64,000 nt of DNA from Desulfomonile tiedjei (GTDB lineage Bacteria > Desulfobacterota > Desulfomonilia > Desulfomonilales > Desulfomonilaceae): assembly GCA_016218715.1 (NCBI GenBank), contig JACRDG010000032.1:248001-312000 (forward strand), in the 5' to 3' direction. Below, piece after piece: positions 1,831-56,289 of this stretch (positions within the stretch are counted from its first letter, which is position 1; each line of letters starts with the position of its first letter). The notes beneath the pieces were generated by a model. It saw only the letters and a list, made by a program, of their open reading frames with translations. It searched no databases and was not told where the DNA came from. The position numbers and the translations under genes were made by a program.

Positions 1831-2922
1831 CTAGTGCGCCGACTGGCCCCAATCCACCTCGATAGCGTAGTCGATAAGCTTTTTGACTCGCTGTTCGTCT
1901 ATCACAGGGGCTGGCAGATCCGGCACTGCGCGTTCCGTATTGGTCCTGTCAAACAAGGGGTCGTTTGAAAAGTGGAGGAGGATGGTCTGCATTTGCCTCC
2001 ACACCATCCGTTCGACGCGGTTCCTCGGCTGGGTAAAAGGCGAACCCACACCGGCAAAACGAAATCCATTAAGATTGAACCTGCGGCAAATGAGATCGAG
2101 CGTCCACTGGTGCGTTGGGGGGCTGGGATGGGTCAGGTGGAAGATCTTGTTGTGGTTTTCGGGGTTCTCGATGATGCGGACCGCGGCTTTTGCCACCCAG
2201 TCCACGGAAATCATATTGATGGTCCCTTCGGGATCGGCCGGGATGTCAATGCGCAGGTCGTGCCTGTTGAATTCGGAGCTGTCGCCTATGAGCCGGTCGA
2301 GAAGGTGCACGGCCTGGAATAGGATGTACCAACCGGAGAAGGATGAACACCTCCCGGTCTCCGAATGGCCCACGATCACTGCAGGCCGCAGGATCGTCGC
2401 ATCACCCATCCAGATTTGCTCCGCTTCCCATTTGCTCTCTTCGTACACATTCACGAAGTCCCCCCGGGGATGGTCGACCTCGTACATGAGCTTTCCTTGG
2501 ATGAGGCCGCACACGTAGGCCGTGCTGAAGAGGTGGACCTGCATGGGCTTGATTTCCACGAGCTTGCGCAGCACCTTTGCGCTGCCCAAATTCGTTCTCA
2601 GCGGTTCGCCGTATGCGTCGAGATGGAGCCGGGTGGATGCCGCGGCGTTCAGGAGCGTGTCGACGTCTTCGAGGCCCTGGTACTCCTGGCACCAGCTCTT
2701 CCAGCGATCGGCCGCATCGAGGATTTCTCCCTGGAACCAGTGCAGGCTGTCCGCGCTCCTGGGGAGTCCGATGCTGCTGAGAAAGCGAATGGTGTCGAGC
2801 TTTCGAGGCTCGCTCCGGTAGAGGCACCAGACGCTGTGACCTCGTTCCAGCAGTTCGGCGAGGAGGTATTCTCCCAGGAATCCGGTGGCCCCTGTGAGAA
2901 GCACTGTCATAGATCGGCCCAT
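1831..2922 (-). CDS. NAD(P)-dependent extended SDR, thioester-reductase-like
   Basis: This 363-residue protein opens with a Rossmann motif, TGATGFLGEYL (about residues 9-19), and carries the YEESK catalytic Tyr-Lys signature near residue 160. Overall it looks like the extended SDR family that includes thioester reductase (R) domains of PKS/NRPS and the fatty acyl reductase NAD-binding domain. It is a free-standing gene, divergent from the megasynthase gene with 218 bases between the two starts. That position suggests, without proving, that it reduces the enzyme-bound acyl chain to an aldehyde or alcohol; a sugar or sterol epimerase-type SDR is the main alternative. The ATG at 2922 is favoured by GGAGGA 5 bases upstream; an internal ATG at 2910 is possible. 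Confidence 0.7.
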   Translation of the reverse strand: MGRSMTVLLTGATGFLGEYLLAELLERGHSVWCLYRSEPRKLDTIRFLSSIGLPRSADSLHWFQGEILDAADRWKSWCQEYQGLEDVDTLLNAAASTRLHLDAYGEPLRTNLGSAKVLRKLVEIKPMQVHLFSTAYVCGLIQGKLMYEVDHPRGDFVNVYEESKWEAEQIWMGDATILRPAVIVGHSETGRCSSFSGWYILFQAVHLLDRLIGDSSEFNRHDLRIDIPADPEGTINMISVDWVAKAAVRIIENPENHNKIFHLTHPSPPTHQWTLDLICRRFNLNGFRFAGVGSPFTQPRNRVERMVWRQMQTILLHFSNDPLFDRTNTERAVPDLPAPVIDEQRVKKLIDYAIEVDWGQSAH

Positions 2923-3075
2923 TCTTCCTCCGTGCGGGACGGTTGTCTCGGCCGGCAGGAACCAAGGGCTTGCCGGGCCGAGTCCAAACGTGTAATCATT
3001 GAGTCTAAGTCAGGCTGAAGGTTCATGCAAGGGAAAACGGAGCCCGGCCCGTGGCCTGATGGGGCGTTTTTCAGT

Positions 3076-3103
3076 TTGGCGATGTTGGAAAATCTGCTAT
3101 ATT
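3076..3103 (+). promoter_or_regulatory. Putative promoter of the megasynthase operon
   Basis: TTGGCG at 3076-3081 and TATATT at 3098-3103 with a 16-base spacer, 37 bases ahead of the ATG at 3141. The intergenic region must also hold the promoter of the divergent reductase. Confidence 0.4.
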
Positions 3104-3140
3104 AAGCGTTTGATTTCAAATCCTCGGTGAGGGGTCAGAT

Positions 3141-6100
3141 ATGTCCGTGAGTAGTGAATTTCCTTTGATTGCCTTTGTCTGGCGCTATGGCGACATTGCC
3201 TCGTCCGTTGTGGACGCGGCACGGAGCACCGGGACTCTGGCAATCTTCGATGTATCTGAATATAAGCTGAACGAAGCAAGCAGAGCCCTTTTGCAGGCCG
3301 ACGCAGACGGACGGTCCGTTGGTTTGAAGATATCACCCGAAGCCCTCCTGGATGACACCCTGCAAGAACTCGTTGACGAAACGGGCATTACTACTTTCTT
3401 CACCGAATTGCACCCGCTTCTTCTGAACGGTGATGTCGATCGGTACCTGGGCAGGATCGGAGAGCTCTCCGGAGAGGTCACGATCGTTCCCATAGTCGGC
3501 GATGTAGGCCTGATCCAGCACATTCTGCTTTCCCGTCCCGACATCGGCCGGCTCGCCTTGAAGGGGAGCGAAGCGGCCGGACTCGTCAGCACTGAAACGA
3601 CATTCACGCTCTACTCCGCGGTCCGTGAGATGCTGGTTTCCCGGGAAGAGCCGATGGAGCTGACGATCTGGGGGGGAGTGGCAACCCCGGAGGCTGCTGC
3701 GGCATTTCTCGCCGCGGGAGCGGGAGGTCTCGTATTTGAGAGCGTACACTGGCTCACGGACCTCGTCGGCCTGAGCGCAGAACAGCACAAGCGCATCGCA
3801 AACCTCCGTCCGGACCACACCGACCTCAACGGCTTGAATCTGCAAGTCCCCTGCCGGCTCTTCAACAAAGGGAACTCGAAATCGGTGAAGGAACTGCGGG
3901 CGTTCGCCGGGTCCCTGTGCGGGGCCGAGATCAGAGACGAGCAGCGAAGGTTCTTCGCCAACCGGATCAACAAGGAAGCGGTCGCTCCGCTCGACAGTAC
4001 ATTCAGCCGGGATGAACTCATCCCCCTCGGCGTGGACGCAGCCTTTGCCGCGTCGTTCGTGAGACGCTTCGGCTCTTCGACTCGGGACGCGATCCACCGA
4101 TTCGTGCAAGCGGTGGAAGACTGCTGTGCCGCTGCCCCGGCCAGGGCCGCGGCGTTCGCGAGCAGCCCGGTGGCCCGTGATATGGGAACGAGATACCCGT
4201 TTATTCAGGGGGCAATGTCGTCCATTACCGATGTGCCGGAATTTGCCAAGCGGGTCGCGGACGCGGGTGGCTTGCCGACGGTAGCCCTCGGAGTAATGGG
4301 GCCGGACGTGCTGGCCGACAAGCTCGGGCGCCTCGGCGAGGTCATGGAGAGCCGACCGTATGCGGTAAACGTCATTACCCTGCAGGAGAATCCGCAACGC
4401 CAGGCCCAGTTGCAGTGGATCCGCGCGAATCGTCCGCGATTTGCAGTGATTGCCGCAGGGGAACCTTCCCACGCAAAGGAACTGCAGGCAGACGGCATCG
4501 ACACCGTGTACATAGCTCCCAACGAAGAACTGCTGAAGCTGGCCCTCGACGCGGGTATCAGGTACGTGATCTGCGAAGGGCACGAGGCGGGCGGCCACGT
4601 CGGGCAGCACAGTTCGCTTACCATGGCGCAGATCGTCATCGACCTGAAAGACCGCGAGCCGAGCCTGTTCAATGCCTGCAGCGTCATCCTCGCGGGAGGG
4701 ATATTCAATAGGGAGACCGCATTCATGGCCGCGATGCTGGGGGCCGACGCGATCCAGACGGGGACCGGGTACCTGAGCACCGCGGAGATCGTGGAGACCG
4801 GCGCGTTAACCGGCTTATACCAGCGCATGATCCTGGACGCCCGCCTCGGCGGAACCGTGGTCACCGGCGAGGGGACCGGCTTGAGGGTCCGGTCGCTGAG
4901 GACCTCACGGATTGAGGCGATCTGTTCGCTCGAGAGGGACTTCGCCGCGGGATCTCACGACGAGGGAGCGTTCCGTAGAAAGATCGAGGAGCTTTCCGCC
5001 GGGAGCCTCTTCGTCGCCGCGCGAGGCTTGGACAGACCGGGCGGGTCCCCACTGGACGAGCAGGAGTGCATGGATTACGGGCAGTTCATGAGCGGCGCTT
5101 GCGCAGCGGCCATCAACAGCGTACGCACCATCGCAGACTACCATCGCGCCCTGGCAGAGGCGCCGCTGGCTGTCGGTCTCCCCTTCGTAGGGCCGATCGT
5201 GGACCGGCCCGCCGCGAGAGTGAGGCCCGAAGAGCTGGCAGTGTCCCCGGCGTCCGGTGTCGTCGGCAGAACCGGCCACGCTGGGCCGCAACCGGAGAGA
5301 ATCGCTATCACCGGTATGAGCGTTGTCAATGCTCTGGGGAACAGCCCTGAGGAGGTCTGGGCTGCATGTTTGGCCGGGAAGAGCGGCATCATTGCCGTGC
5401 CGCACACTCGCTGGGACCACGCCGAGTTCTACCATCCCAGAGTCAGGATGTCTGAAAAGACCTATTGCAAGGTCGGCGCGTTCCAGAACATCGAAGTGTC
5501 ACGCAAGGACATCGGAATTCCACCGCAGGATTTCCGGACCATGACCAACTCCACCAAGATCACCATGTGGTTGGCCACGAAAGCGGTCGAGGAGTCTGGC
5601 ATACTCGAATCGGACATCCCGAGGGAGCGGATCGCGGTTCTCATCTCACAGAATTCCGGCGAGGCCGCGGCGACTCTGCAGGACGTCATCATCCGGGGCG
5701 AACTCTCGAAGATCGTCTCCGCAATGAAGAAGGTCGTGAACCTGTCCGCGGAAGCCGAACACGCGGTCGAGGAGCAGATCAAGGCCGGGAGGATCGTGAT
5801 AGACGACACCACCTTGCTCGGAAGGCTCAATTGTTCGGCCGCCGGCTTCATCTGCAACAAGTACGGCTTTATGGGACCGAGTTTCTCCGTATCCGCCGCG
5901 TGTGCTACGTCTCTGGTCGCGATGTACAGCGCGTACCAGATGATTCGCAACGGCATCATCGATGCAGCGGTCATCGGCGGCGCTGAAGAATTCCTCACCC
6001 CTATGCACTTCCTGGAGTTTTCCGCGCTCGGCGCTCTCGCAGGTCTCGCGGGAATTGAACGACCGCCGACGCAGGCGAGCCGCCCCTTCGACATGGACCG

Positions 6101-9100
6101 TGACGGCATGGTACTCGGGGAAGGGGGCGGGGTCATTATCATCGAACGGGAATCCCTTGCCCGCAAGCGAGGAGCGAAGGTTCACTCGTACATCACGTCA
6201 ATGGGCGCGAGCAACAATCATCTGGGCATGGTCGAGTCTTCCCGGATCACGCAGGAGATCGCGATTCGCGAATCCTTCAGAGATGCTTCGTACGGGCCTG
6301 AAGGGGTGGATCTCATCGAGTGCCACGCCACCAGCACCCGGCAAGGGGACGTGGAAGAGGTCCAGGCGCTGAAATCCTTCTACAACTCCGGCAAGGGGAC
6401 AGTCCTGACGTCCTTCAAGTCGCAGATCGGGCACACCTTGGGCGCTTCGGGCATCAACAGCCTCGTCCGGGGTGTGATGGCCATGAAGGCAGGCCTTTTC
6501 CCGGCCACGCTAAACTACGAGACCCCGGACCCGGAGATCGGCATCGAAGGATCGGGCTTTACCGTGCATCGGGGACCGGCCGAATGGCCGCAGCGGAATG
6601 GTCGGCCCAGGAGGCTCGAAGTGAATGCTTTCGGTTTCGGCGGCTCCAATTACGTGGTCCAGGTGGAGCAGGCGCTGGATGACGATGCGGCGGTAACGGT
6701 CTCGCCTCCGCAGGTCCACCGAGCTGTTGAAGGGCCTTCAGACGCGGCCCCCGTGGAAGGGATCTCGTTCTTCAGGACGACGATCGGTGGGGCCTCGTAC
6801 CGGCTCGGCGTGGTCGCCGCGAACGAAGGGCAGGCCATCGAAATGGTGCAGGCATGCGAGCCTTTTGCCAATGACGGCGCCATCGCGCCCAAGCGGCTGA
6901 GAGCCCTGGCGCGGCAGGGGATACACCTTGGTGTGGAGAGCGAAGCCCCGTCGCCGCTCGCGTTCGTGTTTCCCGGTCAGGGTTCCCACTATGCCGGTAT
7001 GGGGCACGAACTCTATCAGACCTTCCCGATCGTGCGCGAATGGATGGATCGAGCGGCCAACGTTGCGGAATTTGACCTGCTGCAGCTTCTCTTCCACGAC
7101 AGCGAAGAGGATCTCCAGAAGACTCGATGGCAGCAACCCGCGCTCTTCACCATGGAATTTGCCATGGTGAAGCACCTGATGTCCCTCGGGGTTCGGCCGA
7201 CGGCCGTGGCCGGCCACAGCTTGGGCGAGCTTACCGCCCTGTGCGTGGCAGGGGTCTACTCGTTCGAGGATGGGTTCCGCATCGTCAACAAGCGGGCGAT
7301 TTGCATGGATAAAGCCTGCGAGAATAACGTGGACCCCGGCGTGATGATGGCGGTCGATGCACCCATGGACTTCATCGAGGAAGCGCTCCAACGGGTGGAG
7401 AACGTCTACATAACGAACCTCAATTCTCCGCATCAGGTGGTGCTCGGCGGCAATACCGAGACGGTGAAGGCCCTGGGAGCCGAACTGAAGCAACATGGCC
7501 ACAGGAGCAAACTCCTGAGGGTGAGCATGGCGTTTCATTCGCCCATCATGCGGTGCATCCACGACGAGTTGGAGGAGTTCATAGCGGGGGTCCGATTCCA
7601 TCCGCCGCAGATTCCGGTCATTTCAAACACGACGAAAGAGCCCTTCCCCGCGGAGGAGGCCGAGATTAAGAAGATCGTGATGGCTCATCTGGAGTCACCG
7701 GTCTACTGGATGGAGAACGCGCTAACCTTGTGGAACGACTACGGCGTCCGAGTGTTCGTCGAGGTAGGGCCGAGAGACATCCTCAGCAATTTGATCGCGG
7801 ACAGCATTGAGGAAGCGCACTGCGTCCAGACCTGTCTCCCGTCCGCGGAGGAGCTGATCTACCGAACCGCGCTCGCGCAGCTCTTTGCCCGGGGCAACCT
7901 CCCGGTCCGGAGCAGCCTGAAGTTCGTGAGCTTTCCCACGACAGCCAAAGCTCCGGAACCGTACGCGCCCGCGTCGGCGATGACGTCGGCAACCTCTGCT
8001 CCCGGCCCTCAAGGGACCGTGGAGAGAGTCATACAAAGAGAAATCAATTCGTTCGTCATGGAGAGCTTCGGGCGCTTTCTGAAACCGAATCTCCTGGCAG
8101 CCATCAGGAGGGAATACGATCCTGGCTGCACCGTGGAGAAGCTCGACAGTCTCTTGAAGACCATGTTTCCGACCGCGGCGGTTCCTGCCGGGCCGATCCC
8201 CATCGCTGCTCCCGAAGCCGTGCTTCCGCAATCGTTGGTGCAGCCTGTGGTAGCTGGCGGGGCTCCTGTGCAGGCGGTCAAGGTCGATGATGTATCCACT
8301 CCCGCGGACTCGGAAACCGGAGATCTTACCGAGACCGTGATCCGGATCATCATGGATGCCACGGGGTACGAGCGGAACGAGATCGAGCCGGACATGGATC
8401 TCCGCGAAGATCTGTCCATCCGATCGAGCCGTCTGCCGGTCATCATGGACGCGCTGGAGGCCCAGTTCGCAGTGAAGATCGAGCTTGAAGAGTTCATGGA
8501 TGCGCGAACGATCAGAGACATTTCCGAGCGGCTCGCTAAACTCGTAAAGAAAGTTGACGCGAGGCCGGCTGCGAACAAAGCAACCCAGTCTCCTGCAAGG
8601 CGGCCCCTCCCGGCTGAACCGGCAGCGTCCCGCGAACGACAGCCGATCAAGAGGGTTGTGTTCAGAGAGGTCCCACTGGAACCGGGAAGCTTCCAGCCCG
8701 TGGAACTCGACCCGCTGGAATCTGTTGCGATTCTGTCGGCCGTCGGCGGCACCGGGCTTCGGAAAGCGGTTGGGGATGTCTTCCGGAGGGATTACGGCGT
8801 CGGCCTGGCTCCCGTAGCCTTTCTCGGGGATGGATCGGGCCGGGAAGACGGTGCGTTCGACCTCCGAACCGAGGAAGGGAGAACGCTGGCCGTGCGGCAG
8901 CTCGAAGAGATAGGATCGCTTGCCGGCCTGGCTTTCATACTCGACGACGCACTAGCCGAGAAGCTGGAGACCGTGGATGACGTCTCAGCGATTCTCAAAG
9001 GGTTCTTCGGAATACTGAAGGCATTTGCGGAGTCTTCTTCCCGGAAGTTCGCCATCTGCCTCCATCGCACCGATCACGCGAACGGCCTCGGGCGGCTCCT

Positions 9101-11162
9101 GTCCGAGGGGCTGCTCGGGATGTTCCTGAGCATGGCTCAGGAATTCAGTTCAGTGCAGTTCCGCACGGTGCGGCTCGACAGCAAGACCAATCTCCGCGAC
9201 GCGATCAGAGGATCGCTGGACCGCAGTCAGAAGGTCCTGGAAACCGTGTATAAGGGCGGGTCCCTGTTCACCCGGCGGGGACTGGTCGTCCCGCTGCCGT
9301 TCGGAGAGCCGGAACCGGCTGCGCTGACCGCGGACGATGTGGTGGTCTTTTCCGGAGGCGCGTACGGGATAACCCCAGAATTGGCCAGAAGTCTGGTCCC
9401 CTATGGGTGCAGAATGGTCTTCCTGGGAAGGACCGCGCCAGACCCGAACGTGGACTACGACCGCATCCCCGACGATCCCGTGTTGGCCGAACAGGCTGCC
9501 TCAAAGCTCCTCGCCCAAGCACCGCCGCTTGCCGCAGGCGAACAGGGCCGAAAAATTGCCGAGATCGTGCGCGGGGCGGAGATATTCCGGACGATCAATG
9601 GACTGCGTTCGGCAGGAATCGACGCGTCGTATCACAGTTGCAACGTGACCGACTCGCGGGCCACCCAGGCGGCCGTTGAGGAGATCGTAAAGAAGTACGG
9701 GAAGATAGACGGTATTGTACATTCAGCCGGGCTCCTCCGAGACAGCTTTTTGAAGCAGATGAGCTCCGAGGACTTCTCCGCGGTAGTGAACGTCAAGTTC
9801 CTCGGCGCGTGGAATCTGTTCAACGCGGCGGAAAAGGTAGGCTTGCGATTCATGGCGTGCTTGTCTTCTGCCGCTTCCATTCAGGGAAACCCGGGACAGG
9901 TGAACTACGCGGCCGGCAACCGGATCATGTCCGCGTTACTCACTCACCTGCGACGAACCCATCGCTCGATTCGCTTCAAGGCGCTGATACTGCCGCCCAT
10001 CGAGGGAGCCGGCATGGCGGAGAATGAGGAGATTCGCTCCCTCATGAAGCGGATGAACGCGGAATACGTCCACGTTCGGGAGCTTGCGGGGCTGTTCTGC
10101 CGGGAGTTGTTCGTGGCTCCCGCTGATGACGTGTGGGTCATGCTCATGCGTTCACTCCCGGACGTCCCTACGGTGAAACTCGACCAGTCGGAGGTCCTCC
10201 CGTTTCCGGGACGGCTCCACGCTGGAGGGGTCGTTTTCAACGGCGAAGAATTTCCGATGATCGATGCCGTCTCACGCATAGATATGAGCGAGGGGCTGCT
10301 GGAAGTGGCCAGGACTTTTTCCCATGAACGGGACCTCTGGATCAACGATCACAAGCCGTTCAAGATTATGAAGGATCCCATTGTTTCTGCGATCATGGTT
10401 GTGGAGACGTTTCTGGAGGCCGGACGCCTCCTCTATCCGCATTTGACGGCCCTGGGGATCAGGAACGCTCAATTCCTGGACATTATCGAATGCCCACCCG
10501 GTTCTCCACGGCAAACGGAGATCCTTTGCCGGCGACTCGAATCTCCGGGTCTGGAGGTTGTTTGCGAAGTGTCGCTTGCGGCGCGGGAGCTTTCTCCCAC
10601 GGGCAGAGTCGTCGAGCCCAAGCTGGCCAACTACCGAGCGCTGGTGGTACTAGGCGGCGGACCGGGCCGTGGGTTCCGTGAACCCCACGACCTGCGGGTC
10701 ACCCGTGAAGAGCTGGAGAGCCGGCCCATGAATCGGAGTGAAGCCCTGAAATGGTACGACAACCGTACAGACCTGAAAGGCAGATACCGTGTGGTCCAGG
10801 AGATGTATGGATCGGCTTCTGGAGCAGTTATGGGTCGGATCCAGTACGCGGAGACCGCTGACTTCGCTCCCCCCGCGAAGACGCACTATCAGTATCCGCC
10901 GTATCTTCTGGAGGGGCTCATGCAAGTGGTGAACTTTTACATCATCATGAGGGACCCCAACGAGAAGCGGTCCATGATCCCCTTCGGGATCGGCGAGATG
11001 GCTTTCTCAAGAAAGTGTTCCCCGGGGGAAGCCATAACAGTGGAAGCCAGGATCAGGCATCAAACTGAGGAAGGAATCACATGGGACGCTCGGGCTGCAG
11101 ACAAGAACGGGCAGACCATCATGTACGCAAAGGACCTGGTGATGCGGTGGTTCCCGAAATAA
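3141..11162 (+). CDS. PUFA-synthase-like megasynthase: NMO-like/ER, KS, AT, ACP, KR, DH
   Basis: A single 2673-residue chain. Residues 1-about 300 resemble a nitronate-monooxygenase/PfaD-type TIM barrel that seems degenerate; about 345-640 is a second, better conserved one (PFIQGAM near 353, CEGHEAGGHVG near 480, AGGI...ADAIQTGTGYL). Next come a ketosynthase (about 718-1210, Cys921, His1062, His1098), an acyltransferase (about 1270-1560, GHSLGE with Ser1360), one acyl carrier protein (about 1727-1800, candidate phosphopantetheine Ser1762 in LSIRSS), a ketoreductase (about 2060-2310, SGGAYGIT, Tyr2256) and a dehydratase-like hotdog region (about 2390-2673, His2404 in INDHKPF). The content matches secondary-lipid/PUFA synthases, where the PfaD enoyl reductase is usually a separate protein and ACPs come in tandem; here the reductase is fused and only one ACP is visible. 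GAGGGG precedes the ATG. The product is unknown; a reduced fatty acyl or polyketide chain is inferred. Confidence 0.88.
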   Translation: MSVSSEFPLIAFVWRYGDIASSVVDAARSTGTLAIFDVSEYKLNEASRALLQADADGRSVGLKISPEALLDDTLQELVDETGITTFFTELHPLLLNGDVDRYLGRIGELSGEVTIVPIVGDVGLIQHILLSRPDIGRLALKGSEAAGLVSTETTFTLYSAVREMLVSREEPMELTIWGGVATPEAAAAFLAAGAGGLVFESVHWLTDLVGLSAEQHKRIANLRPDHTDLNGLNLQVPCRLFNKGNSKSVKELRAFAGSLCGAEIRDEQRRFFANRINKEAVAPLDSTFSRDELIPLGVDAAFAASFVRRFGSSTRDAIHRFVQAVEDCCAAAPARAAAFASSPVARDMGTRYPFIQGAMSSITDVPEFAKRVADAGGLPTVALGVMGPDVLADKLGRLGEVMESRPYAVNVITLQENPQRQAQLQWIRANRPRFAVIAAGEPSHAKELQADGIDTVYIAPNEELLKLALDAGIRYVICEGHEAGGHVGQHSSLTMAQIVIDLKDREPSLFNACSVILAGGIFNRETAFMAAMLGADAIQTGTGYLSTAEIVETGALTGLYQRMILDARLGGTVVTGEGTGLRVRSLRTSRIEAICSLERDFAAGSHDEGAFRRKIEELSAGSLFVAARGLDRPGGSPLDEQECMDYGQFMSGACAAAINSVRTIADYHRALAEAPLAVGLPFVGPIVDRPAARVRPEELAVSPASGVVGRTGHAGPQPERIAITGMSVVNALGNSPEEVWAACLAGKSGIIAVPHTRWDHAEFYHPRVRMSEKTYCKVGAFQNIEVSRKDIGIPPQDFRTMTNSTKITMWLATKAVEESGILESDIPRERIAVLISQNSGEAAATLQDVIIRGELSKIVSAMKKVVNLSAEAEHAVEEQIKAGRIVIDDTTLLGRLNCSAAGFICNKYGFMGPSFSVSAACATSLVAMYSAYQMIRNGIIDAAVIGGAEEFLTPMHFLEFSALGALAGLAGIERPPTQASRPFDMDRDGMVLGEGGGVIIIERESLARKRGAKVHSYITSMGASNNHLGMVESSRITQEIAIRESFRDASYGPEGVDLIECHATSTRQGDVEEVQALKSFYNSGKGTVLTSFKSQIGHTLGASGINSLVRGVMAMKAGLFPATLNYETPDPEIGIEGSGFTVHRGPAEWPQRNGRPRRLEVNAFGFGGSNYVVQVEQALDDDAAVTVSPPQVHRAVEGPSDAAPVEGISFFRTTIGGASYRLGVVAANEGQAIEMVQACEPFANDGAIAPKRLRALARQGIHLGVESEAPSPLAFVFPGQGSHYAGMGHELYQTFPIVREWMDRAANVAEFDLLQLLFHDSEEDLQKTRWQQPALFTMEFAMVKHLMSLGVRPTAVAGHSLGELTALCVAGVYSFEDGFRIVNKRAICMDKACENNVDPGVMMAVDAPMDFIEEALQRVENVYITNLNSPHQVVLGGNTETVKALGAELKQHGHRSKLLRVSMAFHSPIMRCIHDELEEFIAGVRFHPPQIPVISNTTKEPFPAEEAEIKKIVMAHLESPVYWMENALTLWNDYGVRVFVEVGPRDILSNLIADSIEEAHCVQTCLPSAEELIYRTALAQLFARGNLPVRSSLKFVSFPTTAKAPEPYAPASAMTSATSAPGPQGTVERVIQREINSFVMESFGRFLKPNLLAAIRREYDPGCTVEKLDSLLKTMFPTAAVPAGPIPIAAPEAVLPQSLVQPVVAGGAPVQAVKVDDVSTPADSETGDLTETVIRIIMDATGYERNEIEPDMDLREDLSIRSSRLPVIMDALEAQFAVKIELEEFMDARTIRDISERLAKLVKKVDARPAANKATQSPARRPLPAEPAASRERQPIKRVVFREVPLEPGSFQPVELDPLESVAILSAVGGTGLRKAVGDVFRRDYGVGLAPVAFLGDGSGREDGAFDLRTEEGRTLAVRQLEEIGSLAGLAFILDDALAEKLETVDDVSAILKGFFGILKAFAESSSRKFAICLHRTDHANGLGRLLSEGLLGMFLSMAQEFSSVQFRTVRLDSKTNLRDAIRGSLDRSQKVLETVYKGGSLFTRRGLVVPLPFGEPEPAALTADDVVVFSGGAYGITPELARSLVPYGCRMVFLGRTAPDPNVDYDRIPDDPVLAEQAASKLLAQAPPLAAGEQGRKIAEIVRGAEIFRTINGLRSAGIDASYHSCNVTDSRATQAAVEEIVKKYGKIDGIVHSAGLLRDSFLKQMSSEDFSAVVNVKFLGAWNLFNAAEKVGLRFMACLSSAASIQGNPGQVNYAAGNRIMSALLTHLRRTHRSIRFKALILPPIEGAGMAENEEIRSLMKRMNAEYVHVRELAGLFCRELFVAPADDVWVMLMRSLPDVPTVKLDQSEVLPFPGRLHAGGVVFNGEEFPMIDAVSRIDMSEGLLEVARTFSHERDLWINDHKPFKIMKDPIVSAIMVVETFLEAGRLLYPHLTALGIRNAQFLDIIECPPGSPRQTEILCRRLESPGLEVVCEVSLAARELSPTGRVVEPKLANYRALVVLGGGPGRGFREPHDLRVTREELESRPMNRSEALKWYDNRTDLKGRYRVVQEMYGSASGAVMGRIQYAETADFAPPAKTHYQYPPYLLEGLMQVVNFYIIMRDPNEKRSMIPFGIGEMAFSRKCSPGEAITVEARIRHQTEEGITWDARAADKNGQTIMYAKDLVMRWFPK

Positions 11163-11205
11163 CGCAGGGTCGGGGCATTTGAAGGACGGAGGCTGCTACG
11201 TACTG

Positions 11206-11994
11206 ATGGAGAGCGCTAAACGGGGCAAGAGTGGCGCAACTGTTTCGTCTGATTCGGTCGCGGAACTTCGGCTTGGGCAGCCGGAGGTAGTCCGGGATCT
11301 TCAGGTGAGGAGCGCACTGGTCGGCGATCATCCGGTACTGTACGCACGAGCGACTCTCTCCTGCAGACAGAAAAGGGACGCGTCGCTTCGCCGGACGTTG
11401 CAAGAGCAGCTCGCAAAGCTATTGTGGACGCGGAGCGCTAGTTCCTCGTACGAAGGCACAAGTTCGCACGGAATCACGCATGACGTGAGGATAGTGCGAA
11501 CGATCCTGAACAGACCGCTCCTGAGGGTCTCCGACCGACGATGTGCCTCCGTGTCGTTCAGCTGGACGACCGGGGTACTCTGGGCCGCTCTGTCCGACGA
11601 GGGAACGGGAGTAGGCATAGACGCTTCCGAAGCGGCTGAGTTTGAAGGACCCTACCCCTACGAACGAGTTTTTGGCGAACCGGAATGGGGCGCATGGTTT
11701 ACTGGTGGCCGTGAGACCTATCCCGAAACCGCGGCGCTCGTGTGGTCCGGCAAGGAAGCGGTCGTCAAAGCCATTGGGTCCGGTTTTCACCTGATCGCTC
11801 CGCGCGAGGTAGAGATCGTTCCCTGCGACACACAGAGAGACCAAATCAGGTGCCGTGCCGGCTTCTCGAACCGGGTACTGGAACGATTTCCGGAACTGAG
11901 GCGCGCCAGGACCTGCATCATGAGCTTCAAAGAAAGTCGGGCATGGCTCTCCATCGCTCTGATCGAAGTCCACATCGAGGGTATGGGTGGATGA
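11206..11994 (+). CDS. 4'-phosphopantetheinyl transferase, Sfp-like
   Basis: The protein has the paired signatures of this superfamily: GVGIDASE (the acidic residues that bind magnesium) and, about 50 residues later, WSGKEAVVKAIGSGF. About 260 residues is normal for the Sfp/EntD type. It lies just after the megasynthase stop in the same direction, so its likely role is to attach the phosphopantetheine arm to Ser1762 of that enzyme's ACP. The open frame also has a TTG at 11179, adding nine residues; I prefer the ATG at 11206, although the GGAGG ribosome site at 11187 is rather far from it. The N-terminal third is poorly conserved. Confidence 0.82.
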   Translation: MESAKRGKSGATVSSDSVAELRLGQPEVVRDLQVRSALVGDHPVLYARATLSCRQKRDASLRRTLQEQLAKLLWTRSASSSYEGTSSHGITHDVRIVRTILNRPLLRVSDRRCASVSFSWTTGVLWAALSDEGTGVGIDASEAAEFEGPYPYERVFGEPEWGAWFTGGRETYPETAALVWSGKEAVVKAIGSGFHLIAPREVEIVPCDTQRDQIRCRAGFSNRVLERFPELRRARTCIMSFKESRAWLSIALIEVHIEGMGG

Positions 11995-15240: not shown

Positions 15241-16824
15241 ATGCCCACAAGCAAGAAACCTCAAACGCCTGCGCGGTTGACCGAAGAATCTGGTGACCGC
15301 AGCCCCCGGCAGCCCTCCGGGGTGGACTCGGCTGAGACGGAGCAAGGCTTCCAGAGCCGAGTTAGGGAATCGACGCCCGGTGTTCTGTCGCGTCCGAAAA
15401 CAGACCGGCACGATTCGCCTGCGGGGCCTTCAGCCGCGAGACGCGAGGCGGACGCCGGCGGGTACCGGGAAGTCCTCCGGGTCGCCGTTCCGCTCGTGCT
15501 CTCGACAGCTTCCCTGACGCTGATGCTCTTCGTGAACCGTATGTTCCTCGCCTGGTATGGACAGAGTTCCGTGGCCGCCGCGACACCGGGGGGGATCACG
15601 TACTTCACGATCTGCTCGTTTTTTCTGGGAACGGCAGAATATGTGAATGCCCTTGTCGCCCAACATCACGGCGCGGGTGACAGGCCGGCCTGTTCTCGGT
15701 CGGTCTGGCAAGGAGTGTGGTTCTCTCTCGCGTCGGCTCCAGTGATTCTCGCTCTGATCCCGGTTGGGAGAGAGATGCTCACCTGGAGCCAGCACGGTCC
15801 CGAACTGGAGGAGCTGGAGAAGGAATACTTTTCCCTTCTCATGATTGCGGGTGTTGCCCTTCCATTCAACGCTGCGTTGGCGTCATTCTTCTCCGGCCGC
15901 GGGAGGACGAGGGTCGTGCTATGGGGGAACCTCATGGCCAACTGCCTGAACGTGGCACTGGATTACGTGCTCATTTTCGGCAAGCTGGGGTTCCCGGAAA
16001 TGGGGATTCGCGGGGCGGGCCTTGCGACTGCCATAACGAGCGTGATTCCTGTGGTCTACTGGGGGGCCCTGTTTCTCTCTCCCCCTTATCAGAGGGAATA
16101 CCGGTCTCGCAAGGAGTGTCGATGGGACCCCCGGTTGTTCAAGATGCTCGTTCGCTACGGGTTCCCGGCCGGAGGCCAGCTATTTCTCGACGTCGCCTCC
16201 TTCACGGTGTTCGTCCTACTGGTGGGGCGACTGGGAGAAGGGGCACTTGCCGCGAACAACGTTGTGTTGACGATCGACATGCTCTCGTTTCTCCCCATGG
16301 TGGGGATGTCCATCGCAACCGCCACGCTTGTCGGCAAGTATATGGGTCGAAACGAGCCGGCGTTCGCGGAAAAGAGCGCCTATTCCGCGCTCAAGCTTGC
16401 GTTGGCCTATTCGTTCGCTTTCGCGGCTCTCTTCTTCTCGGTTCCCGAGCTGTTCCTGCATCTCTTCAGCCCTGAGCACCATGGGGCTACCGCATTGCCG
16501 GAGGTCGTGCGCACGGGCACGATCCTGTTGCGTATGGTGGCAGTTTACACGGTGTTCGACACGATGGTCATCGTGCTATCGGGTGCGCTCAAAGGGGCCG
16601 GCGACACGCGTTTCGCGATGGCCGCTCAAACCGTCTTGGCATGGCTTGTTCTGGTGGTGCCGGTTTATGTGACCATCGAATACCTTCGCATGAGCGTGTT
16701 TACCGCGTGGGCCTGCCTGGTCTGCTACAGCCTGCTTGCGGGCACGGTCTTTCTTCTTCGCTTTCGGTCGGGGTACTGGAAAACCATAAGGATCGTTGAA
16801 AGGCGGCCCGAGGCCGAGGGGTGA
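15241..16824 (+). CDS. MATE-family multidrug/organic cation exporter
   Basis: The frame encodes 527 residues. About the first 75 are hydrophilic and Ser/Pro/Arg-rich; the remainder holds about twelve hydrophobic segments with the MATE repeat pattern (for example FVNRMFLAWYGQSSVAAATP and the matching second-half ANNVVLTIDMLSFLPMVGM). MATE proteins are about 450 residues, so either the N-terminal extension is genuine or translation starts further in; no internal start is clearly better. These transporters sit in the inner membrane and use sodium or proton gradients. Cargo is unknown; export of the product of the upstream lipid locus is only a guess. Confidence 0.85.
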   Translation: MPTSKKPQTPARLTEESGDRSPRQPSGVDSAETEQGFQSRVRESTPGVLSRPKTDRHDSPAGPSAARREADAGGYREVLRVAVPLVLSTASLTLMLFVNRMFLAWYGQSSVAAATPGGITYFTICSFFLGTAEYVNALVAQHHGAGDRPACSRSVWQGVWFSLASAPVILALIPVGREMLTWSQHGPELEELEKEYFSLLMIAGVALPFNAALASFFSGRGRTRVVLWGNLMANCLNVALDYVLIFGKLGFPEMGIRGAGLATAITSVIPVVYWGALFLSPPYQREYRSRKECRWDPRLFKMLVRYGFPAGGQLFLDVASFTVFVLLVGRLGEGALAANNVVLTIDMLSFLPMVGMSIATATLVGKYMGRNEPAFAEKSAYSALKLALAYSFAFAALFFSVPELFLHLFSPEHHGATALPEVVRTGTILLRMVAVYTVFDTMVIVLSGALKGAGDTRFAMAAQTVLAWLVLVVPVYVTIEYLRMSVFTAWACLVCYSLLAGTVFLLRFRSGYWKTIRIVERRPEAEG

Positions 16825-50068: not shown

Positions 50069-50361
50069 GATACGTGTGTCCTTTCGTGATGACAAGTGGA
50101 AAAGTCAGAGGAAGATGAGCACGTTATTCCCCGGCAGCGACAGGGGAAAGCGGATCATCCGGCTGACGCCGAGTCGTCGCGTCAGACATTCGGCTCGTGA
50201 ACCATCGGCGCTTCAGTGCGTTACACAGTTGCGGCTGGCGTCAGTTATGTCGCTCACCGCGGAAAATCGTCATTGACCGGCTGGAGGGTAAAGAGTTATG
50301 GTCATGCGCAGGGGTTCCGAGGAAGAGGCTCGGCGCGGGCACTACCCGGGAGGAGAGACGA
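50069..50361. other. Divergent intergenic region; conserved toxin upstream DNA
   Basis: The 5' side of the toxin shares CTTGTC, CACGAAAGGA and, further up, GCCGGGGAATAACGTGCTC-like DNA with the region upstream of the toxin starting at 59590. It also serves the rightward pentapeptide gene. Confidence 0.5.
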
Positions 50362-51999
50362 ATGCCAGAGTGCAAGCACCATACAATCTGCCACCTCGAT
50401 GCCGATGAAAATACCGGCGACGGTTTCTGTATTCTCCACTCGGAAAAAGCCAACAAGGACCAAGACGATTTCCTAAGGGATTTCGACGCGCATCGTTCGA
50501 CAAACGAGGAACCTGATTTCTCATATTTTGTTTTCCCAGGTCACGCCAGTTTCTACAATGAGGCCTTCGGTAAAGCCAAATTTCTTGGTGCTCGGTTCTT
50601 GCAGGGAGTCACCTTCGCCGCGGCGACCTTTGCAAGCGCCAACTTCAGTCGTGCCAAGTTCAAAGCTGGCGCTGTCTTTCACGATGCCACATTCAACGGA
50701 TCGGCTAACTTTTCGCGCTCCGAGTTCGCCGAAGAAGTTGACTTTAGCCACGCTAAATTCACCGGTTACACCAAATTTGTAAATGCCCATTTTCAGGGAG
50801 CCAACTTCTGGTTCACCAAGTTCGTTTCGGACCGTGAGATTACAGCGGAGGTTGACTTCGCAGGTGCTGAGTTTGCTGGAGATGCATATTTTACAGATAC
50901 TCGATTTGACAAAGCCGGCTTCACCCAGGCTAAGTTCGCATCGGCCGAATTCATCAACGCGCGATTCAAGGAGGCCAACTTCGACCACGCCGCGTTCTCA
51001 GGGGCAACCACGTTTGCCGGCGTTGAGGTTTGGGAAAAGTTTCGCTGCGTAGAGGTTGGTTTCACGGGAGAGATGAATTTCACGAAAGGCCGCTTCGCGG
51101 ATGCCAACTTCTCCGGTGCCAAGTTCGCTCAGAAAGTGGACTTCGAAGGAAGGAGGTTCCTAGGGAAATCCGACTTCAGAAGGACTCAGTTCAAAACAGG
51201 AGCCAATTTCACGGGGGCCTACTTCGAAGAGAAGGTTAATTTCAGTTATGCTGAATTTCGAGAGAGAACGGTCTTTGCCCCTAAGAAACTAGCTATTGAA
51301 GGATTTGCAACCGAAACTCTCCCTGTTTTTTGCGATGCTGAAGTTGACTTCAGAGACGTGATCATCGAGCCGCTCGATGCACTCGTGCTCCGAGATGCTG
51401 ATCTCAGCAGATGTCGGTGCCAAGGCACGGACCTGCGGAAGGCCGAGATTACCGGAGCGCTTTGGCGCAAAATCGGCAGCCGCTTCGGGGTCTTTGATGA
51501 AGTCGCCTCTATACCCATGGATGCGACTCGGGACTGGTACGACATCGAGCGGCTGTACCGCGAACTGAAACAAAACTACGAAGACCGTCGTGACTACGAG
51601 CGAGCTGGCGATTTCCACTACGGCGAGAAGGAAATGCGCCGGATAAATCCTAAGACTCATTGGGCATGGCGGTTTGTCTTGGGGGTGTACCTGGTAGTGA
51701 GCGGCTATGGCGAGAGGTGCCTGCGCCCGCTTGCCTGGGCAAGTTTGTTCTTGGCACTTTTTACCATAGGTTATCTCTGGTGCGGCCTGTGTCCCAAAGA
51801 TGGAGACCAGATCCTGACGATATGTGATTGGTCGGATTGGCGTGCCTGGAATTACAGTCTCCGCGTTATGACGCTCCTCAAGCCCTATGACTGGGTTCCT
51901 CAGGGGTGCGGAGAGTGCATCAATACGTTCGCAAGCCTCGTAGGCCCGCTCCTGATCGGCCTTTTTGCTTTGACTCTCAGGCAGCGGCTGAAGCGCTGA
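50362..51999 (+). CDS. Pentapeptide-repeat protein with C-terminal ion-channel-like region
   Basis: 545 residues. An N-terminal Cys/His cluster (CKHHTICHLDADENTGDGFC) precedes a long run of pentapeptide repeats, about residues 65-400, with A(N/D)F at regular spacing (ANFSRAKF, VDFSHAKF, ANFTGAYF), which should fold as a right-handed quadrilateral beta helix. After a helical linker (DIERLYRELKQNYEDRRDYERAGDFHYGEKEM), two membrane helices frame a short pore-like loop (LFLALFTIGYLWCG ... FASLVGPLLIGLFALTLRQ). Such architecture occurs in pentapeptide-channel fusions of unknown role. It runs against the phage genes. The ATG at 50362 has AGGAGAG before it. Confidence 0.82.
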   Translation: MPECKHHTICHLDADENTGDGFCILHSEKANKDQDDFLRDFDAHRSTNEEPDFSYFVFPGHASFYNEAFGKAKFLGARFLQGVTFAAATFASANFSRAKFKAGAVFHDATFNGSANFSRSEFAEEVDFSHAKFTGYTKFVNAHFQGANFWFTKFVSDREITAEVDFAGAEFAGDAYFTDTRFDKAGFTQAKFASAEFINARFKEANFDHAAFSGATTFAGVEVWEKFRCVEVGFTGEMNFTKGRFADANFSGAKFAQKVDFEGRRFLGKSDFRRTQFKTGANFTGAYFEEKVNFSYAEFRERTVFAPKKLAIEGFATETLPVFCDAEVDFRDVIIEPLDALVLRDADLSRCRCQGTDLRKAEITGALWRKIGSRFGVFDEVASIPMDATRDWYDIERLYRELKQNYEDRRDYERAGDFHYGEKEMRRINPKTHWAWRFVLGVYLVVSGYGERCLRPLAWASLFLALFTIGYLWCGLCPKDGDQILTICDWSDWRAWNYSLRVMTLLKPYDWVPQGCGECINTFASLVGPLLIGLFALTLRQRLKR

Positions 52000-54174: not shown

Positions 54175-56289
54175 TTACCCCGAAGTCACTCCAGGTCCCA
54201 GCGCATCGGCAGCCTGCATCTGCAGCGCCTGGGCAAGGGCATTGGCATCCGTCGGCTCAGGGCCCATGGGCCCGCCGTTTTCCACGAGACGGGAAGGATG
54301 GTTGGGAGCAGTCCCTGCCGGAGTGCCCTCGCCTTGCCCGCTTCCAGGGCGAGCGAACGGATTTTCGGCTTGCCCGAGGTCCGCTCCCGCATCTCCCGCG
54401 TCGATGCGGCTCAGCACCCGGTCCACGCCGTCCACACCGATAAGATCGAGGTACCGCTTGATCATCTCGGAAAACGATATTTTGACCCCTTCCCGTGCGA
54501 GGATCGGCTCGAACTGAGCGAGCGTCGGCAGGACTCGCTCGATGCTCTGGGCCTTGGCCAGGCGCGTGGAATCCTGACGGGTCATCGTCGCGGCCACCCG
54601 GAATCGGTTTGACTGGATCTCTTCCGAGGTTACTGCCAGCGGGATCTCTCGGCCGTTGCCGCTCCGTACGGTAATGACCTGATCCTCGAGCAGGAATTGT
54701 TGCAGCATCGAGAGCGCAATCGCACCGAGCGGTTCCAGGAAGGTCCTGGCAAAGAGATCGGCCCTGGTGGTAAACGGTTTCTGGGCCGATTCCTGGAGGA
54801 TATGCGCCTCGGTGGCGGTTTTGGCCTGGCCGACGAATCCCTCGACCATGTCCGGCATCGCGGTGCGCCGTTCCAGCATGTTGTTGAGGTAATCGATGAG
54901 GTAGTTGACGTCCTGCTGGGGGAAGTGCAGAGGCGGAAACGGTTGCACGTCGCCGGGCTCGTCAACGGTCCACACCTTGCCCGGATAGACCGCGTCGCTT
55001 TCGGTGCTGATCTGACGTGCAGCCGACGAACCTCGCCTGACGATGAGCTGTGCGTTGGCCGTGAGCCGGGCGTTGTCCTGGGACTGGCTTATGAACTGAG
55101 AGATGGAGTGGATCAGGTCGAGGTTGCTCTCGACCGCGCCCATGCCGAACGGCCCGGGGAGCGGCGTGTAATGGGCCGCGAGAAACGGCCTCAGGCCCGA
55201 CCAGAGCACAGGCCCGTCCGTGAGGCGCACCATGACCCCGTCTTCGGGAGAATCGGCTCCTTTGTCGGTTACGATCGTGCAGAGGCTCTCGACATGGCCT
55301 TTTGCCGTGGGGATGAGCCCGTGCCACTCCCACACGGTGACCTTGGGTATCTCGTCCGCATCGACCGATTCGCTGTCCGGGTCCCGCAGCAGGCGCTCCT
55401 CATCCGTGGTGCCCCAGGAAGGGGCGTTGCCCCAGCGGTCCATGAACGCATCGCGATTGAGCGTGTAAACCCCTCGCCGGAACTGGTCGATCACGTGTTC
55501 CCGGGTTTTGTCGACCCGGTGCCCGATCCCGGAGTGACGCTGCACGTCGCTGTGCGTGGCGGTCCAGTCCACGAGCAATCGGTCCAGCGGAATCACCTGG
55601 ATGATAGGGCAGTCGTAGATCTTCTCTTGATTGTCGATGACCTCGAGGGTGTTGAAATCCCAGCGGTGACGGTTGACCGTCCTTGTGTACCAGAAGATCT
55701 TCGCATAGACCGAACCGAAGAGCACCAGATGCTGGAGAATCTCGTACAGCCTCACATGGATCTGTCCCTGTGCGAGCCGCTGCACGAGCAGTTCCTGAAG
55801 CTTGAAAGAAGCCGGGAACGGGAGACGTGCATCGCCGCGTTCGGGGCCGTCCTCCGGCACCACGGTGAGCCATTCGGGGCCGCTGAAGATCGCCTGATAG
55901 GCTTTGTCCGCCCACGTATCCACAATGTAGGACGGCGCGAGGATGATGTCTGCCTGCCAGCGTTCTCTCCGGGAGCCCGCTGCTTTCCGCAGCGCCACCC
56001 GGTTCTCTGCCGCGGTGACGCCGGAACGAGCGCCCCACGAATGCAGCTCGCGGCGATTGTGATACAGGTCCTCAAGGAGCTTCCAGCGCTCGATCTTTCG
56101 TGCCAGGAAACTGCACGATGCCTTGCACCAGCGACTGACGTACCGAAAGGCCTCTTCCTGGAATGCCTTCGACGGTGTCGGCTGCGGCGCAACGGTCCGA
56201 TCGGAGGTATCGTGTTGATGGCCGATCTGACGGCTTGCGTCATTCTCCTCGTAAGAACGGCTTGAACCTTGGCGAACTGTTGAGTCCAT
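54175..56289 (-). CDS. Phage portal protein
   Basis: 704 residues. The body has the podovirus portal style: ILAPSYIVDTWADKAYQAIFSGPEWL near residue 115-140, LFGSVYAKIFWYT, then LIHSISQFISQSQDNARLTANAQLIV in the clip and stem region and MLQQFLLEDQVIT further on. The C-terminal 80 residues are Gly/Pro/Ala-rich. It would form the dodecameric DNA gate bound by terminase and adaptor. AGGAGAGGG precedes the ATG. The N-terminal 60 residues are disordered. Confidence 0.8.
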   Translation of the reverse strand: MDSTVRQGSSRSYEENDASRQIGHQHDTSDRTVAPQPTPSKAFQEEAFRYVSRWCKASCSFLARKIERWKLLEDLYHNRRELHSWGARSGVTAAENRVALRKAAGSRRERWQADIILAPSYIVDTWADKAYQAIFSGPEWLTVVPEDGPERGDARLPFPASFKLQELLVQRLAQGQIHVRLYEILQHLVLFGSVYAKIFWYTRTVNRHRWDFNTLEVIDNQEKIYDCPIIQVIPLDRLLVDWTATHSDVQRHSGIGHRVDKTREHVIDQFRRGVYTLNRDAFMDRWGNAPSWGTTDEERLLRDPDSESVDADEIPKVTVWEWHGLIPTAKGHVESLCTIVTDKGADSPEDGVMVRLTDGPVLWSGLRPFLAAHYTPLPGPFGMGAVESNLDLIHSISQFISQSQDNARLTANAQLIVRRGSSAARQISTESDAVYPGKVWTVDEPGDVQPFPPLHFPQQDVNYLIDYLNNMLERRTAMPDMVEGFVGQAKTATEAHILQESAQKPFTTRADLFARTFLEPLGAIALSMLQQFLLEDQVITVRSGNGREIPLAVTSEEIQSNRFRVAATMTRQDSTRLAKAQSIERVLPTLAQFEPILAREGVKISFSEMIKRYLDLIGVDGVDRVLSRIDAGDAGADLGQAENPFARPGSGQGEGTPAGTAPNHPSRLVENGGPMGPEPTDANALAQALQMQAADALGPGVTSG

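Follow-up and report, generated by a model that had tools for sequence, protein, structure and literature searches.

A family of single-chain synthases with tandem FabK-like barrels ahead of KS-AT-ACP-KR-DH

Fusions of pfaD to pfaA, in which the ER stands ahead of KS-AT, have already been published (PMC13291983), and a catalogue by Shulse and Allen distinguishes twenty types among such synthases, noting the ars cluster (Type P), which has a single ACP, as an exception to tandem ACPs (PMC3098273). TIM-barrel enoyl reductases are dimeric in action. In a PUFA synthase from a thraustochytrid, one ER is neither stable nor able to bind FMN when its partner ER is absent; in both FabK and PfaD, catalysis has been proposed to depend on the motif-III His (PMC13311796). 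With respect to the fate of the chain, ArsA passes acyl chains from its own ACP to type III PKSs (PMC6274091), and an iterative PKS together with an AOS makes sphingolipids (PMC12134224). Work on the Black Sea pointed to Desulfobacterota as the likely makers of unusual sphingolipids there (PMC11334938); a search of the open-access literature on sphingolipids, Desulfo and PPTase found no paper.

The 64,000-nucleotide stretch of Desulfomonile tiedjei DNA analysed here (the window) holds a synthase of 2673 aa, encoded by one open frame with an ATG start, in the order barrel 1 - barrel 2 - KS - AT - ACP - KR - DH (Table 1). The synthase is like PfaA/PfaD, including the published fusions (PMC13291983), in its KS-AT-ACP-KR logic and TIM-barrel enoyl reductase, but it has no CLF and no DH/isomerase pair, a single ACP, a FabK-type barrel and a distinct KS. 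FabK itself resembles both barrels in fold and sequence, and barrel 2 also in the EAGGH motif and catalytic His; here, however, the barrels are in tandem and fused to a megasynthase, and barrel 1 is without the His and motif I. The Ars-type (Type P) synthases, represented by Beijerinckia indica pBIND02 BIND_RS19780 and by ArsA of Azotobacter vinelandii, likewise have tandem barrels, the first without the His, followed by KS-AT-ACP-KR, and the Beijerinckia protein is also alike in its length (2674 aa) and in having a PPTase close by. They differ in sequence (28% identity), in KS clade, in their two ACP matches and in their type III PKS partners; moreover, no DH is found on the chain, the DH being on a separate DH-PPTase protein. 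The SgaA/SgaB sphingolipid cluster (PMC12134224), from organisms unrelated to the window's and likened here by description rather than by sequence, is similar in that an iterative type I synthase works with an SPT-type AOS.

An earlier note on this DNA had implied that an ER fused ahead of the KS was new, which does not hold given the pfaD-pfaA fusions (PMC13291983) and the same tandem barrels in the Beijerinckia Type P synthase. The combination of an own KS clade, a same-chain DH, an IRSS carrier, a recognised pseudo-reductase barrel and sphingolipid-type gene linkage was not found described in the open-access literature. The synthase is thus probably new as a variant, not as a kind, and what sets its family apart is the KS lineage, the fused DH, usually one ACP with the odd IRSS motif, and the gene neighbours.

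Orthologues of 2.6-2.7 kaa with 50-64% identity occur across the window's own family and other families of the same phylum, and a scan of named genomes also found them in Nitrospirota, Lentisphaerota, Desulfuromonadales, Syntrophaceae, Desulfobacteraceae and Desulfarculaceae. The architecture is thus that of a family (Desulfobacterota, Nitrospirota, Lentisphaerota and others) and no isolated curiosity; 20 full-length or near-full members were used for comparison.

Table 1. Position, strand and supporting evidence of the synthase, its domains and the adjoining genes (window coordinates)
Feature	Position	Strand	Evidence
Single-chain synthase, predicted to be iterative	3141..11162	+	ORF, domain matches, orthologues
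Barrel 1, residues 1-334; FabK fold, putative pseudo-enoyl-reductase	3141..4142	+	profile, AlphaFold2, Foldseek, motif count
Barrel 2, about residues 341-670; predicted FabK-type FMN enoyl reductase	4161..5150	+	NMO, FabK 9pl0, TIGR03151, Foldseek, motif count
KS, residues 717-1180; C921, H1062, H1098 conserved	5289..6680	+	Pfam, alignment, trees
AT, residues 1269-1570; GHSLGE (S1360), MAFHS	6945..7850	+	Pfam, alignment
Single ACP, residues 1725-1802; motif DL(S/A)IRSSR	8313..8546	+	Pfam, NCBIfam, alignment
KR, residues 2062-2300; NADP loop and S/Y/N catalytic motifs conserved	9324..10040	+	Pfam, alignment
DH, residues 2360-2673; His in DH(K/R)PF and Glu in LEAL invariant	10218..11159	+	PS-DH 2528-2671, alignment
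4'-phosphopantetheinyl transferase (PPTase), directly downstream of the synthase	11179..11994	+	ACPS 1.4e-10
B12-binding radical SAM protein, related to ladderane-cluster family TIGR04072	12103..13638	+	310.9 bits, cut-off 360
Divergent SDR reductase (NAD_binding_4 / thioester-reductase-like)	1831..2922	-	below-cut-off model matches
MATE exporter	15241..16824	+	conserved downstream in 5 loci of the window's family

The two N-terminal barrels

Barrel 2 carries the motifs QGAM (356-359) and GHEAGGHVG, the latter with H486, and this motif-III His is invariant (38/38). Its best PDB match in a sequence search is FabK 9pl0 (1.3e-24), and Foldseek also returns FabK, with a TM of 0.87 by target length. 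Against the FabK model (TIGR03151) it scores 118 bits, short of the equivalog cut-off of 453, compared with only 21.7 bits against the PfaD model (cut-off 449). Barrel 2 agrees with FabK in sequence, fold and catalytic His, and by these signs we assign it as a FabK-type, FMN-dependent enoyl reductase.

For residues 1-334 of the window protein by themselves, no Pfam or NCBIfam model matches, so that a profile from relatives was needed; an NMO match is present in the barrel-1 region of 19 of 36 relatives. The barrel-1 profile (36 sequences) matches FabK crystal structures (2e-22), and a profile-profile comparison pairs barrel 1 with barrel 2 (98.8% probability, E 8.5e-17). AlphaFold2 predicts a confident TIM barrel for residues 1-334 alone (pLDDT 94.0, pTM 0.92), and scores are similar for residues 1-700 (pLDDT 92.4, pTM 0.93). 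In the barrel 1 model, eight strands (9-15, 33-37, 60-64, 85-89, 114-119, 137-140, 173-177, 196-199) alternate with helices, and Foldseek ranks FabK first (E 1.2e-14, TM 0.67-0.70). Barrel 1 therefore has the FabK fold; it fails, however, on the motif-III catalytic His, which is found in 0/38 sequences, the residues there being varied but never His. In the window protein, motif III of barrel 1 reads KGSEAAGLVS. The earlier note's proposals that residues 1-340 form a barrel and that this barrel is degenerate are both borne out. Its description of the pair as NMO/PfaD-like is right as to the two barrels but not as to their kind, given that by sequence and profile both are FabK-like and PfaD falls far behind.

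Since TIM-barrel ERs are dimeric and the thraustochytrid ER depends on a partner, barrel 1 may, by analogy, be a structural pseudo-reductase that serves as the built-in partner of barrel 2. A dead barrel beside a live one would then be a natural, covalently linked case of that thraustochytrid dependence (PMC13311796).

In a quick tree of 20 barrel 1s, 20 barrel 2s and 6 stand-alone FabKs, with long branches among the barrel 1s, the three groups separate with support of 100, 90 and 96, respectively. The tandem barrel is best read, from this tree, as one old event and a single module, which is common to the Ars-type synthase of Beijerinckia, to the genome's own PUFA-like gene (G000:C4) and to Desulforapulum autotrophicum (L062). 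The last two are tandem-barrel PUFA-like megasynthases, alike in the B1-B2 module, of single origin by the tree, but much longer, with a second KS-like domain, several ACPs, a PUFA-type KS and, in some, a fused PPTase. By eye and from partial matches, the G000:C4 synthase (L030:7200-17948; ~3580 aa) is ordered B1-B2-KS-AT-KS-like-ACPx2-KR-DH-PPTase. It should also be noted that both ACPs of this type of synthase carry Thr (LGIDTVKQAE) at the phosphopantetheine Ser site, and do so in both species (L030:7200-17948, L039:5387-15985).

The catalytic core and its expected cycle

Pfam places NMO at residues 349-596 of the synthase, KS at 719-1127, AT at 1275-1564, one PP-binding domain at 1732-1798, KR at 2069-2273 and PS-DH at 2528-2671, the same order after the barrels as had been noted earlier. 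Over the whole protein, Pfam detects no second KS/CLF, no methyltransferase and no thioesterase domain; nor does it find the second DH/isomerase of the pair seen in PUFA synthases. Conservation of catalytic residues was checked in 20 orthologues, and the KS Cys-His-His, the AT Ser and MAFHS, the KR motifs and the DH His and Glu are all conserved. The AT motif suggests malonyl specificity. The DH, which uses Glu where modular PKS DHs carry Asp, has no match in the PDB by sequence; it is probably a double hot-dog of which Pfam covers the C-terminal part only.

The claim that there is one ACP holds for the window protein but not throughout, as a second ACP match is present in the relatives at L045 and L049. 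The ACP motif is found in 20/20 orthologues, with Arg preceding the attachment Ser, a position at which most carriers have Asp. Given this unusual replacement, formation of holo-ACP is not assured. A PPTase gene adjoins the synthase in 17 of the 23 loci compared, and its product, probably the cognate PPTase, would arm the ACP.

The AT would then load malonyl onto the single ACP, the KS would condense, the KR would reduce the keto group and the DH would dehydrate; barrel 2 (FMN, H486) would reduce the enoyl group, and the cycle would repeat on the one ACP. Barrel 1, as a dead FabK barrel, would be kept as a folding or dimer partner of barrel 2 and as a scaffold. With a complete KS-AT-ACP-KR-DH-ER set and its catalytic residues kept in about 20 orthologues, the earlier suggestion of an iterative enzyme with all reduction steps on one chain appears sound. 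A saturated or mostly reduced product is likely on the same grounds, although not certain, as the use of the ER in each cycle is not readable from sequence. Being compact and having a single ACP, the synthase could serve as a model of how iterative enzymes are programmed.

Gene neighbours and the fate of the chain

As the synthase has no thioesterase, a dedicated enzyme that consumes acyl groups is expected to take the chain over from the ACP. At two Desulfuromonadales loci (L045, L049), the largely co-oriented genes run epimerase - SPT - GNAT - lipoprotein - synthase - PPTase - acetyltransferase - ABC ATPase - ABC permease, with one opposite-strand gene between SPT and GNAT in L045. A Lentisphaerota locus (L044) has an AMP-ligase - ACP - AOS fusion of 1165 aa (1890-5387) near the synthase. 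In PDB matches, the AOS of L045 is closest to bacterial SPT structures (413 bits vs 264 for KBL). The same is true of the AOS encoded in the window's own genome (G000:C4:171502), which scores 390 bits with SPT vs 281 for the next family; an SPT is thus present in the same genome as the window synthase.

A survey of 395 genomes of the phylum, made with strict score limits, recovered 17 synthase copies in 15 genomes. Genes of the GNAT family are found no more than 1 kb from SPT in 32 genomes, and one adjoins the synthase in 6 of the 17 copies. GNAT is present in 14 of the 15 synthase genomes (Fisher 1e-8) and SPT in at least 8 (Fisher 1e-4); both p-values ignore kinship, and 5 of the 15 are of one family. 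The window's own family departs from this, with its SPT and GNAT genes located elsewhere in the genome and not beside the synthase. By its gene linkage, the GNAT is a candidate ceramide-synthase-like acyltransferase.

We propose that the synthase is an iterative type I FAS-like enzyme which performs the full cycle on one chain, keeps barrel 1 as a dead scaffold and hands the chain to a sphingolipid-type pathway, an account that we consider to have about an even chance of being correct. In the relatives, the chain would most likely be taken by the linked GNAT acyltransferase and/or the SPT, and the dedicated lipid supplied is probably sphingolipid-like. More tentatively, these may be self-contained type I acyl synthases of an undescribed family, marked by a separate KS lineage and by a pseudo-reductase/reductase pair that is obligatory, which pass chains directly from the carrier into ceramide-type lipids in anaerobes such as sulfate reducers. 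Where anaerobic bacteria obtain the acyl chains of their sphingolipids becomes a directly testable question with a dedicated synthase whose gene is linked to those of SPT and of a ceramide-synthase-like acyltransferase.

At locus L088, a sulfotransferase gene (647-1852) shares a contig with the synthase, and in the window genome a gene that looks similar by eye (L144:8292-9557) is located ~4 kb away from SPT. Such genes would be in keeping with a sulfated lipid or a sulfono-lipid.

Within the window's own family, the recurrent neighbours are the reductase upstream, the B12-radical-SAM protein, which is kept beside the synthase, and the MATE exporter, whose tie to the pathway is uncertain; a relative of the SDR reductase is nearby in 10 of 23 loci. 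These neighbours raise a different possibility, namely that the NAD_binding_4/thioester-reductase-like gene product releases the chain reductively, giving an aldehyde or alcohol on which the B12-radical-SAM enzyme then acts; the relatives with the sphingolipid link would be putting the same synthase to a different use. The conservation of both genes, the matches of the reductase to thioester-reductase models (85 bits) and to MxaA (4u7w), and the closeness of the radical SAM protein to the ladderane family are consistent with this scheme. However, all of the models are matched below their cut-offs. The SPT-side epimerases of the relatives belong to a different subfamily (Epimerase 132 bits), and the reductase could hence equally be the ketone reductase of a ceramide-like lipid. 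We consider reductive release rather doubtful, and retain hand-off to a sphingolipid-type pathway as the preferred reading.

Barrel 1 activity, KS lineage and other products

Could barrel 1 have an activity of its own, such as an FMN-independent step or the isomerisation of a double bond? Its motifs 'KG.EA.G' and 'GG..(T)PEAAAAFL..GA.G' are strongly conserved, as an active domain would have it. Nevertheless, beyond the missing motif-III His, the motif-I Met is not apparent, the QG.M of barrel 2 being without a counterpart at 9-15, and the fraction of invariant columns is lower than in barrel 2 (0.096 vs 0.217). Such an activity is thus unlikely, and a structural role remains our preferred reading of barrel 1.

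The earlier note took the synthase to be PUFA-type, from which one would expect partial reduction and a product chain, polyunsaturated or oxygenated, that goes into membrane phospholipids or is used to make olefins. The kinds of domains are indeed those of PfaA plus an ER, PfaA is the best-scoring model for the KR region (83.8 bits), and the top whole-protein families are NF045894 and TIGR02813. The KS, however, tells otherwise. The 21 KSs of the architecture family group into a single, long-branched clade (100/100), to which neither the PUFA-type KSs nor the Ars-type KS nor the KS of the genome's own PUFA-like gene belongs. The named references in the tree, drawn from a plasmid collection, are modular PKSs (~32% identical) and FabFs rather than HglE, enediyne or Ole KSs; within this range, the earlier expectation that the KS would fall outside any known family of the same architecture is upheld. 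In one tree the clade joins FabF, with a long-branch warning, and when FabF is left out it joins the modular PKSs at 5% support. The attachment point shifts between trees; the separateness of the clade is firm, but its nearest kin is not. The scores agree with this separateness: the KS part reaches 188.4 bits with PfaA, compared with 634.7 for the genome's own PUFA-like gene (G000:C4), and the whole synthase 438 bits, against a cut-off of 1010. The tandem ACPs, KS-CLF pair and separate PfaD-type ER of a PUFA (Pfa) synthase are all missing, as is a second DH/isomerase. The assignment to the PUFA type is therefore not supported, and products of that kind are improbable.

Finally, an Ars-like (Type P) role, in which the synthase would supply the alkyl chain for a phenolic lipid or pyrone and a type III PKS would take it, is highly improbable. 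The tandem-barrel - KS - AT - ACP - KR order is indeed the same in Beijerinckia, but the KS is in a different clade, and a search for type III PKSs (PF00195) in the window's genome and five members of the family found none, for which reason we rejected a type III PKS as the chain-taking partner.

Elsewhere in the window, positions 29364-57788 form a prophage-like stretch with an SU10-type portal protein (54178-56289), an endolysin-like M15 peptidase, and minor tail and tail-like proteins. A pentapeptide-repeat protein of ~600 aa is encoded at 50197-51999.
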